Below are positions 29,199-34,325 of a stretch of DNA of 34,325 nucleotides, one piece after another (position 1 is the first letter of the stretch; each line of letters opens with the position of its first letter). The notes beneath the pieces were generated by a model that saw nothing but the letters and a program-made list of their open reading frames with translations, did no database searches and was not told where the DNA came from. The stretch is from Pedosphaera sp. (lineage in GTDB: Bacteria > Verrucomicrobiota > Verrucomicrobiia > Limisphaerales > F1-12-MAGs170), in assembly GCA_009695275.1 (NCBI GenBank), contig SIBF01000027.1, positions 1 through 34,325 on the forward strand, read 5' to 3'. A program made the position numbers and the translations under genes.

Positions 29199-29345
29199 CC
29201 CTGCGTTGGGATGACCGTGATATGCGCGAAACTCTTTCAACGGTAGCCGGTCTATCCTTTATGCTGAAGAAAGAACTCAGGATCTCAATCGACCAGTTTG
29301 CCCTCGCAAATCCGGGTTTGGTATTCCCAATATGAGCCACAAACC

Positions 29346-31283
29346 ATGAGCGAACTGCAAACCATCGAGGAGTTGTTGCAACGCACGGCAAGCCGCCGGC
29401 GCATGCAGCAAGGTTGGCGCGGGCTTTGGCAGGGTTTCCTTGTTGGCGCGATCATCTGGCTGGCGGCCCTGGCCCTCTACAAAGTGGCACCAGTTCCAAC
29501 TGTCACTCTCGGCCTTGCCGGGGTCTTCGCCGGTCTCGCGATGACCGTCGGTTTCATCGTCGGGTGGTCGCGGAAATTCTCCATGGCGCAGGCGGCACGC
29601 TGGCTCGATTCTCAACAGGGACTAAAGGAACGCCTTAGCACAGCCCTGGAAATTTCACACGGCAAGACCTCAGAAGAATGGAAGACTCTTGTTGTCACTG
29701 ACGCCGTCCAATGCCTTCCAGAAGTCAATCCCTCTCAACTCCTGCCCTGGCGGCTTCCAAGAGCAGCTCGATGGAGCGTCCTCGTGCTGGCGGTCGCGGC
29801 GGGCCTTGGCTTTGTGCCGGAATACAGAACTCAAAAGTTCGTTCAACGCCGACGAGATGCCGATGCCATAAAAGAGAGCGGCCAGCGCCTTCTCGAACTC
29901 GCCCGGCGCAATCTCGAAGCGCGGCCACCCGCGCTCGAAACCACGCGCCAGTCCCTCGAAAACGTCGCCGAACTCGGTGATCATCTCGCGAAAGCCCAGC
30001 TCACCCGCGCCGAAGCGCTGAAGGATTTGTCGAGTGTCGCCGAGAAGCTCAAGGAACAAGTGCGCGAACTTGGCAGGAATCCCGCCTTTCAATCCATGGA
30101 AAAAGCCGCGCGAAGCGTCGAGCGCGGCGGGACTCCCGGTTCCGCCGAACTCCAGAAGCAGATCGATTCGCTCCAAAAGGCTCTAAGCGATCAAGCGAAA
30201 GAGCCAAATGCTCTCGATAAGTTCAAGAAGGACGTTCAAAGCGCTCGGGAAACTGCGGCGAACATGCCGGACAAAGATTCTCCCGGTGGAGCGGAAGCGG
30301 CGGAAAAGCTCGCCCAAACTCTCTCCAATCTTTCGCGTCAAGCCACGGACATGGGGCTTTCACTTCCCGCTCTCGAAGAAGCCATCGCCGCGCTGGCAGC
30401 CAGCCAGACGGATCAACTGGTGCGCGATTTGAAGACCACGGAGATCGAACTCGACAAGTTGCAGGCAATGGCAAAGGCGCTCAAGGAACTCCAGGCTCAG
30501 GCTGACAAGGTCGGCAAGGATTTACCCGAGCAGCTTGAGTTCGGACAGGCGGAAGCGGCGCAGTCCACGCTGGGTCGAATGGCAGAGAAGTTGGAGAAGG
30601 CGGGTCTCGACTCGGAAGAACTCAAACGCCTCGCCGAAGAGATTGGCCGCGCCATTCATCCAGCCAGCCAGTACGGGAAAGTCTCTCAACTCCTCAAACA
30701 GGCATCTCAGAAAATGGAAGGCGGACAAAAGAGTGATGCCGCCAAGGATCTCAATGACGCCGCGAAGGAGCTCCAAAGCTTGATGAAGGAGATGGGCGAT
30801 GCGCAGTCCATGATGGCCTCGTTGGATGCTCTTCAACAGGCGCAGATGGCCATCGCCAACGGCCAGGCTTGGAGCCAGTCGAAGTCAGCACCGCGCGCTG
30901 GCCGGGGTGGTGGTGTCGGTCAAGGAGTCGGCGCCTGGGCTGAGAATGAAGGCCGCCTCATGGACATCAATGACATCAAGGATCGCTGGGACAACTCAGG
31001 TGTGGTCCGTGAAGATCAGGATCCACGTGGCATCGCCGATCGCGGCGATGCACAGCTCGCAGACAATCTTGCTCCCACAAAGATCAAAGGCCAGATCAAG
31101 CCTGGTGGTCCCATGCCGAGCATCACACTCAAGGGAGTAAGCATCAAAGGCATGAGCCGGGTGCAAGTCGAGGAGGCTTCCACCGCTGCGCAGAGCGCCG
31201 CGCAAAGCGCACTCAGCCAGGAGCAGGTGCCCCGCGCCTATCGCGGCGCCGTGCGTGATTACTTTGATGATTTGAAGAAATAG
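29346..31283 (+). CDS. DUF4175-like membrane-anchored coiled-coil protein
   Basis: N-terminal hydrophobic segments, long Lys/Glu/Gln-rich helical region and disordered Gly-rich C-terminal part, directly upstream of a moxR gene. Confidence 0.65.
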   Translation: MSELQTIEELLQRTASRRRMQQGWRGLWQGFLVGAIIWLAALALYKVAPVPTVTLGLAGVFAGLAMTVGFIVGWSRKFSMAQAARWLDSQQGLKERLSTALEISHGKTSEEWKTLVVTDAVQCLPEVNPSQLLPWRLPRAARWSVLVLAVAAGLGFVPEYRTQKFVQRRRDADAIKESGQRLLELARRNLEARPPALETTRQSLENVAELGDHLAKAQLTRAEALKDLSSVAEKLKEQVRELGRNPAFQSMEKAARSVERGGTPGSAELQKQIDSLQKALSDQAKEPNALDKFKKDVQSARETAANMPDKDSPGGAEAAEKLAQTLSNLSRQATDMGLSLPALEEAIAALAASQTDQLVRDLKTTEIELDKLQAMAKALKELQAQADKVGKDLPEQLEFGQAEAAQSTLGRMAEKLEKAGLDSEELKRLAEEIGRAIHPASQYGKVSQLLKQASQKMEGGQKSDAAKDLNDAAKELQSLMKEMGDAQSMMASLDALQQAQMAIANGQAWSQSKSAPRAGRGGGVGQGVGAWAENEGRLMDINDIKDRWDNSGVVREDQDPRGIADRGDAQLADNLAPTKIKGQIKPGGPMPSITLKGVSIKGMSRVQVEEASTAAQSAAQSALSQEQVPRAYRGAVRDYFDDLKK

Positions 31284-31365
31284 GCGTCTCAGTTTCGAAG
31301 CGTGCTCAACGAAAAAGACTGGAGAACCCTTCGACGATTTATCTGTTCAACAACTCAATCGTTTC

Positions 31366-32367
31366 ATGAACACCGAAACTCAAATTCAATCCTTCCGCCA
31401 AACCTACTCCGCGCTCCGTGACGAAATCGGCAAGGTTATTGTTGGCCACAATGAAATCGTCGAGGGCACACTTATCTCGTTGTTCGCTGGGGGGCACATC
31501 CTGCTCGAAGGCGTTCCGGGCCTCGGCAAAACGCTGCTCGTCCGAACCCTCAGCGAAGTGCTGGACCTGTCATTCAACCGCATCCAGTTCACGCCGGACC
31601 TGATGCCGGCGGACATTCTAGGAACAAACCTTGTCAACGAGACACCCGAGGGAAGGCGCGAATTTCAGTTTCAGCGCGGCCCGATCTTCGCCCATCTGGT
31701 TCTCGCCGACGAAATCAACCGCGCCACCCCGAAGACTCAATCGGCACTCCTCGAAGCCATGCAGGAGAAGCAGGTCACGGCTGGTGGGGAGATTCGGAAA
31801 CTGGCTGAACCGTTCTTCGTCTTCGCCACGCAAAACCCGATCGATCAGGAGGGAACTTATCCGCTGCCCGAAGCGCAGTTGGACCGCTTTTTCTTCAAAC
31901 TGGTGGTCGGCTACCCTTCAGCGGCGGACTTGACAGAAGTGCTCAACCGCACGACCGAGGGGATCAAGCCACAAGTCAACAGGGTCTTGGATGGTGCCGG
32001 CTTGATCGAATGGATGCGCCTTGTCCGGCAGGTTCCGGTGGCCACGCACGTCAAGGATTACGCAGTCCGGCTGACACTCGCCACTCATCCCAAGACTGAG
32101 ACAGCGCTCCCAATTGCAAATCAGTACCTTCGCTTCGGCAGCAGTCCGCGTGGAGCACAATGCTTGATTCTCGGCAGCAAAGTCCGCGCACTCATCCAGG
32201 GCCGGTTCAATGTCAGCTTCGACGATATTGATGCCATCATCCGCCCGACGCTGCGCCACCGCCTCATCCTGAACTTCGAAGCCGAGGCTGAAGGCATGAC
32301 CACGGATCATGTGATTGATCAGGTGGTGAAGGAGGTGCCGAGGATGGCGGAGACCGTGAATGTATAA
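31366..32367 (+). CDS. MoxR-family AAA ATPase
   Basis: GHILLEGVPGLGKTLLVRTLSEVLDLSFNRIQFTPDLMPADILGTNL, LADEINRATPKTQSALLEAMQEKQVT, FATQNPIDQEGTYPLPEAQLDRFFFK. Confidence 0.95.
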   Translation: MNTETQIQSFRQTYSALRDEIGKVIVGHNEIVEGTLISLFAGGHILLEGVPGLGKTLLVRTLSEVLDLSFNRIQFTPDLMPADILGTNLVNETPEGRREFQFQRGPIFAHLVLADEINRATPKTQSALLEAMQEKQVTAGGEIRKLAEPFFVFATQNPIDQEGTYPLPEAQLDRFFFKLVVGYPSAADLTEVLNRTTEGIKPQVNRVLDGAGLIEWMRLVRQVPVATHVKDYAVRLTLATHPKTETALPIANQYLRFGSSPRGAQCLILGSKVRALIQGRFNVSFDDIDAIIRPTLRHRLILNFEAEAEGMTTDHVIDQVVKEVPRMAETVNV

Positions 32368-32380
32368 CAATAAAAGAGGC

Positions 32381-33100
32381 ATGTCATCGGACAAGTCTTT
32401 TGTAGGGAAGGTTGAAGAGGCCGTTGACGATCTCAACAAGGTTCGCAAACGAAAGCCTTGGTTGTTTTTTCTCATAGTGGCAGGACTCTTTGGGTTCGCG
32501 GCGCTTTACGTTTTCGAGAAATTCTGGGGCATTCCTAGATTAAAGGAGCAAATATCCGTGCAAAAGGAAGAAATGAGTGAGTTGAAGCGTGATCGCGATG
32601 CGAAGGCAAACCAACTCGCCCCTTTTCTTGCCTTTGCGAGCAAGCAATTTCCAAATCAAACCGAACCAGAGAGGCTTGGGAAACTGTTACAACAAATCGA
32701 GGAAGCCACGGCTCAAATGAAGCAAATCGGCGACTCGCTTCCGCGCCCAAGAAGGATAGCGGACGGAAACGCTCAAACAATCGTTACGCTCCTTAGTCAA
32801 GCTCCGAAGTTTTCTGTCACCATTACATACGAGAGTAGTCAACGAGACGCTGAAGGACTAGCCAACCAGTTACGGTCCATTTTTGAAAAAGGAGGGTGGC
32901 AGGTCAAAGGACCTCAACCTGCGATGATCATTTTGAGCGGTTCGCAACCGTCTTTTCAAATCAGCGTCAAGGAAATGCCTCCAAGTTCGGTGCAACGTGT
33001 ATTGTCCGAACTTTTCGATTCATTGCACCTGAAAAGAGCCATCGCCAAGAAAACTGACATCCCCACGAACGAGCTGAGTATTTACGTCGGCCACCAATAG
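32381..33100 (+). CDS. Hypothetical single-TM protein with coiled-coil segment
   Basis: KPWLFFLIVAGLFGFAALYVF TM, then a charged coiled coil and an alpha/beta-like C-terminal domain; no family recognised. Confidence 0.6.
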   Translation: MSSDKSFVGKVEEAVDDLNKVRKRKPWLFFLIVAGLFGFAALYVFEKFWGIPRLKEQISVQKEEMSELKRDRDAKANQLAPFLAFASKQFPNQTEPERLGKLLQQIEEATAQMKQIGDSLPRPRRIADGNAQTIVTLLSQAPKFSVTITYESSQRDAEGLANQLRSIFEKGGWQVKGPQPAMIILSGSQPSFQISVKEMPPSSVQRVLSELFDSLHLKRAIAKKTDIPTNELSIYVGHQ

Positions 33101-33240
33101 TCTCTGGCATGAAACAACCGGAATTCCTTGTAGATTCTTCTCTCAGCTCGATGGTCACGGGTCACTCGCTGCGCGCTTCGGTCTTCCAGGACGCGCAAGA
33201 GAAGTTCCGATCGTGCATTGCTGGGTGGAGTAAGTTTGAG

Positions 33241-33720
33241 GCCACGCCCGTCCTCACCCCAACCCTCTCCCCCAGGAGAGGGAGAATCCTCTGCCGCGTG
33301 TTGAGTTATCGAACGCCGCCCGTCCTTCGTTCGCCGTCTCCTACTAGCCGACAACCAGCGGTGACGGGCAATTCGACGTTTGAAATTTCTGAGCGCATCC
33401 GCTCGCTGTTCCCTCTCCCCGGGGGAGAGGGTCAGGGTGAGGGCGAGCGCTACACTAATTTAAACGCCAAACTGGTCCTGGGCCGGGTTGTTGAGTTTGT
33501 TGCCACGCCCGCCCTCACCCCAGCCCTCTCCCCCAGGAGAGGGAGAAACGTTCACCGCGCGTTGAGTCATTGGAAGCTGCAGGTTCTCGGTTCGCAGTCT
33601 TCCACAAAACACAGCCCGGTGGTGATAGAGCGTTTCCCCCCCATTCCGCCTGTACCGCTCGATTGCAGTTCCCTCTCCCCGGGGGAGAGGGTGAGCGAGA
33701 GGGTGAGCGTTTCACTAAAT
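33241..33720. repeat. Two diverged ~260-bp tandem units, each with inverted GC-rich ends
   Basis: Left ends gccacgcccg(t/c)cctcacccca(a/g)ccctctcccccaggagagggagaa at 33241 and 33502 (period 261). Right ends gttccctctccccgggggagagggt at 33409 and 33669 (period 260). The right end is approximately the reverse complement of the left. Confidence 0.85.
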
Positions 33721-34125
33721 TGTTTCCTTCCCTCCAACCTCCGGCGGCGCCATCGGCTTCGTGTAGTGAGGCGCAGGATGCGGCGCGCGTTCTTGAAGCG
33801 CATTGAAAATTGCATCCCGCACGAGCTGTTTTTCCCGCCGCAATTGCCAGTTCCAAAAGCGAAGTTCCTTTATTCCCATCGAGGCGAGAAACTTCGTCCG
33901 CTCGGCGTCGTGCACCTGTTGATCTGGTTGCCCGTGGTGCCCGCCATCGAGCTCGATGGAGAGGCTTGCCTCACGGCAGTAGAAGTCGAGGGAGTATGCG
34001 CCAATAGGAAATTGACGACGAAACTTGTATGCGCTGAACCGCCGGTCGCGCAACCAGCTCCATACGAGTTTTTCAGCCCAGGTCTGCTTCTTGCGCAAGG
34101 TGCGTGTGAGCGCTGTATCGGGCAT
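33715..34125 (-). CDS. DUF559-domain (Vsr/PD-(D/E)XK-like) endonuclease-like protein
   Basis: MPDTALTRTLRKKQTWAEKLVWSWLRDRRFSAYKFRRQFPIGAYSLDFYCREASLSIELDGGHHGQPDQQVHDAERTKFLASMGIKELRFWNWQL. Confidence 0.92.
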   Translation of the reverse strand: MPDTALTRTLRKKQTWAEKLVWSWLRDRRFSAYKFRRQFPIGAYSLDFYCREASLSIELDGGHHGQPDQQVHDAERTKFLASMGIKELRFWNWQLRREKQLVRDAIFNALQERAPHPAPHYTKPMAPPEVGGKETI

Positions 34126-34325
34126 GTCGGAAATGTTCTCTGTTTTGAGTGGGATGAAAAGAATAGTGTTTACTTCCGCCCTCACCCCGGCCCCACTGCC
34201 ATTGAATTAGATTGCAAGTGGTTTATAGTTAGATATTTACATTGTACAAATTGGACTGCGCACCTATTAGCCTTGGGATGCGAACAATTCTGCATGATAT
34301 TCCTGAGCATCTCATCATCCTTGTC

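Follow-up and report, generated by a model that had tools for sequence, protein, structure and literature searches.

The intrastrand-triplex repeats called BoxC, PIT or TM have been known from E. coli since the 1990s. Their consensus, TM_ECO (formerly named BoxC and PIT), reads CCCTCNCCC-N3-6-GGGNGAGGG-N3-GGGNGAGGG; E. coli MG1655 carries 23 copies, and a related motif occurs in more than 260 prokaryote genomes (Holder et al. 2015, PMC4666352). TM_ECO oligonucleotides form a stable triplex in vitro, and TMs block polymerase in vitro and are associated with local genome instability and high local variability (PMC4666352). The same paper reports neither a function nor a linked transposase or integrase for TM_ECO, cites an earlier study in which TMs were without promoter or terminator activity, and is silent on ycjD, DUF559 or any nuclease.

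On the enzyme side, Kosinski et al. 2005 (PMC1189080) took YcjD as an established PD-(D/E)XK protein with Vsr as a near relative. That paper concerns the same YcjD/DUF559 family and the same fold prediction; its accessible portion gives no genomic partner or function, and the repeat association is what we add here. Two structures of related proteins have been solved. NGO0050 of N. gonorrhoeae (PDB 3HRL) is DUF559-like (E 4e-38) and was deposited as putative endonuclease-like only, while I-Bth0305I (PDB 3R3P) resembles the family in fold and, weakly, in sequence (E 8e-5; Foldseek E 8e-4). I-Bth0305I was deposited as a mobile intron protein, whereas DUF559 genes are free-standing between triplex repeats, with no intron.

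In genomic layout, the likeness is to RAYT/TnpA_REP and its REP/REPIN repeats, where a low-copy nuclease gene is flanked by dispersed short intergenic palindromes (PMC3733652, PMC3116915, PMC8266576). In both cases inverted pairs dominate and the type of repeat matches the enzyme clade. The components differ, however: the enzyme described here is PD-(D/E)XK/Vsr-like (PF04480) rather than an HUH Y1 tyrosine transposase, and TMs are triplex-forming repeats with a G-rich third strand in place of the GTAG tag of REPs. Since the enzyme is not HUH Y1 and the GTAG tag is absent, the DUF559-TM pairing is not a RAYT (PMC3733652).

The window, a stretch of 34,325 nucleotides from Pedosphaera sp. (contig SIBF01000027.1), contains such a pairing (Table 1). 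As the preliminary description had noticed, two similar blocks of about 260 bp are present together with a third, partial end. The blocks are spaced 260-261 bp apart and match along two stretches, 33233-33344 against 33494-33605 (79% identical) and 33400-33461 against 33660-33721 (84% identity). The further proposal that the 260-bp unit is itself mobile had to be abandoned, as the conserved element is a single TM of 33-36 nt, usually arranged in tails-outward pairs. From the orientations of the four elements, the apparent 260-bp units are tails-outward inverted pairs of about 190 bp plus a spacer; elements 1 and 2, and likewise 3 and 4, form two such REPIN-like pairs beside an intact DUF559 gene.

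Table 1. Repeat elements and nuclease gene in the window
Feature	Position	Strand	Remarks
TM element 1	33252-33282	(-)	Hairpin CCCTCTCC-TGGG-GGAGAGGG, then TT and third strand GGGGTGAGG
TM element 2	33411-33443	(+)	Exact fit to the published TM_ECO/BoxC consensus
TM element 3	33513-33543	(-)	
TM element 4	33671-33703 (or to 33707)	(+)	1 mismatch vs consensus; third strand faces the DUF559 gene at its 3' end
Remnant of a fifth TM, 18-19 nt	34176-34194	(-)	Third strand GGGGCCGGGGTGAGGGCGG alone; hairpin truncated; points to the 5' end of the gene
Inverted pair A	33245-33449		32-nt arms, 84% complementary
Inverted pair B	33506-33710		Copy of pair A at 260-bp spacing
ORF of DUF559 (PF04480), predicted Vsr-like PD-(D/E)XK nuclease	33715-34185	(-)	E=2e-31

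Each TM of about 33-36 nt consists of a pyrimidine arm CCCTCTCC, a loop of 3-5 nt, a purine arm GGAGAGGG, 2-3 further nt and a G-rich strand GGGTGAGGG, this third strand being the mirror of the purine arm. The consensus order of arm, loop, arm, N3 and third strand is matched exactly by element 2, whose DNA hairpin has a folding energy of -9.3 kcal/mol, and with a shorter stem or a mismatch by the other three. The truncated end upstream of the gene is indeed present; what had been taken for a left end is the third strand of a TM that has lost its hairpin, and this fifth TM is intact in a same-genus relative (G001, loci L060/L141) whose DUF559 protein is 84% identical.

Judged by its sequence, the window repeat is the already known BoxC/PIT/TM intrastrand-triplex motif, an identity that the preliminary description had missed. 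It shares with BoxC/PIT/TM_ECO an identical consensus, an intergenic position and the frequent occurrence of inverted pairs. It differs from published BoxC/TM in that a dedicated nuclease gene is linked to it, and in that divergent subtypes can be recognised by the mirror rule. The repeat is dispersed: a 20-nt end was found in 29 copies genome-wide (at most 2 mismatches; intergenic position scored for part of the copies) compared with 0 for the reversed control, and the only DUF559 gene of this genome lies inside the repeat cluster, both of which argue against chance. An Rfam search of the TM-bearing loci returned no family match.

The gene call made in the preliminary description was sound. 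The window protein scores 108 bits against PF04480, for which the gathering cut-off is 20.6. The stop codon lies at 33715-33717, and the conserved ATG at 34125 is the most likely start, with a GTG at 34185 as the alternative. DUF559 proteins are small, about 115-150 aa, and the repeat-derived peptide tails that the same description mentioned for them are real. In an alignment of 56 homologues with the window protein first, R19, W30, F43, C58, E66, D68, G69, H72, D81 and R97 are invariant, including an E-x-D-G-x2-H signature. Among these are the putative catalytic residues E66, D68, H72 and D81, with D55 nearly invariant; the active-site residues are constant across 56-57 homologues. An AlphaFold2 model of the window protein (pLDDT 86.6) gave Foldseek matches to 3HRL, to the homing endonuclease I-Bth0305I and to Vsr, and the predicted fold is that of a Vsr-like nuclease.

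Upstream of the DUF559 unit, a MoxR-like ATPase gene and its neighbours (window 29298-33100) are syntenic in a Baikal Pedosphaera (L061), with 77% identity for MoxR. Because a DUF559 gene also follows there, the occupied neighbourhood is common to both genera. The ORF at 32360-33100 had no Pfam match.

To avoid circularity, the linkage of gene and repeat was assessed with a motif-free triplex detector, which asks only for a hairpin with a purine arm and, after it, a third strand in mirror order to that arm; it replaced an initial alignment of left and right flanks, which had scored high in a few GIY controls too. A TM lay within 250 bp of 124 of the 133 standalone DUF559 loci. By group, the counts were 32/33 in Verrucomicrobiota, 28/29 in Alphaproteobacteria and 29/29 in Patescibacteria (for the last two, the best-scoring copies from evenly drawn genomes), and 35/42 in mixed phyla. 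For GIY-YIG nuclease control loci in the same Verrucomicrobiota genomes the count was 0 of 27. This comparison with control genes, which the preliminary description had called for, strongly supports its claim that DUF559 genes and the repeats are associated. The density of TMs is 3.8-6.0 per kb near DUF559 and mostly at most 0.4 per kb beyond 500 bp, and the same detector placed TMs on both sides in 86 copies only out of 133.

Within 97 genomes of the same order, nearly all standalone DUF559 genes adjoin such elements. TM-flanked DUF559 genes with other stem sequences occur in Gammaproteobacteria, Alphaproteobacteria, Elusimicrobiota and Patescibacteria, and DUF559 loci of a cyanobacterial plasmid and of Neisseria likewise carry TM-like elements, with TM-like hairpins on both sides in N. 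gonorrhoeae (L216). A DUF559 gene is found between TM copies in at least five bacterial phyla. TMs and DUF559 were each known before, and the link between the two appears to be new: in the open-access literature (subscription papers and preprints lie mostly outside this coverage), we found no paper joining DUF559 with intrastrand triplexes and no demonstration of TM mobility by DUF559.

Changes in the purine arm are matched, in mirror order, by the third strand. Among 115 asymmetric arms, the tail agreed better with its own arm's mirror image in 51 cases and better with a direct copy in 9, and the mirror fit to the own arm is 0.793 compared with 0.700 for the arms of other copies (sd 0.007). 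A hand count over the dispersed copies listed for the 97 genomes, restricted to the 150 able to carry C or T in the stem, gave C.G.G in 134, T.A.A in 14 and a mixture in 2. With only two mixed copies, this three-strand covariation indicates that the triplex rule is conserved and not just a fixed sequence. The mirror covariation thereby supports the view that window-type TMs may form a triplex.

Repeat copy number tracks the nuclease, and repeat subtype tracks the nuclease clade. The median control-subtracted excess of repeat ends was 37 in the 29 genomes with full-length DUF559 and 2 in the 68 without (p=1.2e-8), so that the copy-number comparison raised in the preliminary description also came out in favour of a link. 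Two order-level relatives (G052 and G096) are exceptions, having more than 250 repeat ends each and no full-length DUF559; their nuclease may have been lost or may lie in a missing part of the assembly, or the repeats may be served by some other enzyme. When the three repeat subtypes were placed on a tree of 29 Verrucomicrobiota nucleases, they needed no more than 2 changes, the fewest possible, compared with a shuffled mean of 6.6 (0 of 200 shuffles as low). Five subtype-B nucleases from five host families nevertheless form one group on the tree, and one genome (G062) contains two dispersed TM subtypes together with nucleases flanked by each. This tree test superseded a nearest-nuclease test of repeat similarity among co-resident copies (17/23, duplicate loci included). 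Among the copies listed, a hand count gave about 27 close-spaced pairs that are tails-outward and REPIN-like, and just two tails-inward pairs within 1 kb, both enclosing DUF559. The analogy to RAYT/REP drawn in the preliminary description is strongly supported by the flanking repeat family, the dispersed inverted pairs and the subtype match.

Gene and repeats come and go together at a site. Two orthologous sites in Rhodanobacteraceae, one between a lysA-like gene and the next gene downstream and the other between hppD-like and hmgA-like genes (all named from sequence context), have the gene and TMs present, degraded together or both absent, depending on the species. This presence/absence polymorphism, for which the preliminary description had proposed a search, is shared with free-standing homing endonucleases at conserved sites. 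A single tail-less TM-type hairpin is kept in four gene-free genomes (L172, L182, L203 and L211), as expected after recombination between the two palindromic hairpins, or if the nuclease unit targets such a hairpin. Left and right ends match as inverted repeats; divergence of the empty sites blurs the boundaries and any target-site duplication. In Rhodanobacteraceae, a test for concerted evolution between the two ends of a unit gave no clear signal (0.75 within units vs 0.68-0.88 between orthologous ends). When co-resident copies were compared, no recent within-genome amplification of the DUF559 gene was detected; because these nuclease copies are mostly diverged, no fresh gene jumps are seen.

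The YcjD protein of E. coli K-12 belongs to DUF559 (E=1e-49), and ycjD is present in 3366 of 5426 complete E. coli genomes. The gene occupies the slot between sapF and fabI, where eefRABCD is found in other lineages (PMC12817139), and in K-12 the interval from ycjD to fabI contains no. 9 of the published TM_ECO copies. On the 5' side of K-12 ycjD, the intact TM is gone; this unit looks partly decayed. The median number of BoxC-like sites per genome is 18 with ycjD and 13 without (p=9e-8), a difference confounded by phylogroup and for this reason rejected as independent proof. Strains lacking ycjD still keep TMs. Three PLSDB records (NZ_CP141089, NZ_OL790696 and NZ_CP119142) are E. coli or N. 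gonorrhoeae chromosomes filed as plasmids.

The reading towards which we lean is a two-component system, in which the DUF559 nuclease acts on the bracketing TMs and repair then spreads or maintains short pairs. The bracketing TM (BoxC/PIT) would be the dedicated DNA substrate of the nuclease. The enzyme would recognise the folded hairpin or triplex, probably on single strands exposed in replication, and may nick or cut beside the TM; repair could then copy or re-insert short TM pairs elsewhere. A single-copy, mostly vertically inherited gene would in this way maintain dispersed non-autonomous repeats, by the same logic as RAYT and REPINs but with an unrelated enzyme, related instead to homing endonucleases. 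The nuclease and its repeat have the look of complementary parts of a single element, selfish or domesticated.

A homing-type process would account for the same pairing differently, and we regard it as somewhat unlikely. Here the nuclease would cut a tail-less, solo hairpin as the empty target, the gene with its TM tails would be copied in by double-strand-break repair with the palindromic hairpins as homology, and loss would occur by hairpin-hairpin recombination that leaves one tail-less hairpin. The closest characterised structural relative is the homing endonuclease I-Bth0305I, and the solo hairpins of the four gene-free genomes, at two orthologous sites, are what such a process would leave. 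Each hairpin being a palindrome, the left and right ones repeat each other in direct as well as in inverted orientation, which we also count in its favour. However, the gene copies at separate loci are old, diverged ones, and none was seen that had recently arisen at a new place; the excess of dispersed TM pairs over genes is left unexplained, and the solo hairpins could have been left by deletions or be terminators of another kind. A maintenance role, in which a structure-specific DUF559 nuclease would clear away or mend the hairpins or triplexes formed by TMs and would not spread TMs, would suit the repair-nuclease-like (Vsr) fold and the reported polymerase blocking in vitro and local genome instability of TMs (PMC4666352). 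We consider it distinctly unlikely, since a repair enzyme acting in trans would not need its substrate on either side of its gene, as is seen in at least five phyla, and genomes with the nuclease have more TMs, not fewer.

DUF559 might instead be one of many genes landing between TMs that serve as general recombination or insertion platforms, or as terminators or insulators. TM loci are variable in E. coli (PMC4666352), and the presence of ycjD in the slot that holds eefRABCD in other strains (PMC12817139) would fit such hitch-hiking. Yet the GIY-YIG controls gave nothing, subtype and clade match, tails-inward pairs enclose DUF559 only (among the copies listed), and the earlier study cited by PMC4666352 saw no promoter or terminator activity, so that we hold this explanation to be very improbable. 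Base composition or chance is a negligible prospect. The window's genome and many hosts are G/C-rich, such genomes are rich in CCCTC runs, and the reversed-pattern control was above zero in some genomes; the effect nonetheless holds in Patescibacteria with different, more A/T-rich stems, and the full 33-mer TM pattern gave 0 control matches in all 97 genomes. A composition artefact was rejected on the reversed-pattern controls and on the Patescibacteria with other stem sequences.

Under the two-component reading, two orphan problems, the BoxC/PIT/TM repeats and YcjD/DUF559, would become one system testable in E. coli K-12. The pairing would be a candidate non-HUH counterpart to RAYT-REPIN systems and a candidate cause of the genome instability reported near triplex repeats. 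A wider proposal, which we offer tentatively as a possibility, is that DUF559 proteins are structure-specific nucleases for intrastrand-triplex DNA and, with TM/BoxC, make up a class of mobile or domesticated element, spread across bacteria and so far overlooked, whose transposon end is a hairpin able to form a triplex; the class would have no relation to RAYT, IS or intron homing systems. Recognition of triplex DNA by the enzyme, if it occurs, would be a new kind of nuclease specificity.

Several variants of the arrangement were seen in other hosts. In plasmid pAQ6 of Picosynechococcus PCC 7002 (L218), many hairpins of the type CCCCCGATTCGGGGGCTAGGGGGC lie on both sides of the DUF559 gene and are apparently a further TM subtype. 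Four Patescibacteria with genomes of 1.1-2 Mb (G099, G102, G433 and G413) have five to eight DUF559 matches each, and in G099 and G102 most DUF559 copies have their own hairpin pair. In Alphaproteobacteria (L080, L081, L126, L128-L130, L229 and L240), an extra variable hairpin separates the purine arm of the TM from its third strand, as in GGGACC-hairpin-GGTGGAGGGG, and is often of the same kind at both ends of the gene.

DUF559 domains also occur in frame inside the type I restriction subunit HsdR of Verrucomicrobiota relatives (L031-L035, L038-L041 and L145); in L032, HSDR_N, SWI2_SNF2 and T1R_D3 surround the inserted domain. On either side of the inserted domain, TM sequence read in frame encodes linkers such as PSPAGRGVGGEG; these TMs are oriented the opposite way (tails-outward). 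Judging from sequence context, insertion probably took place at two or more points close to helicase motifs I and II.
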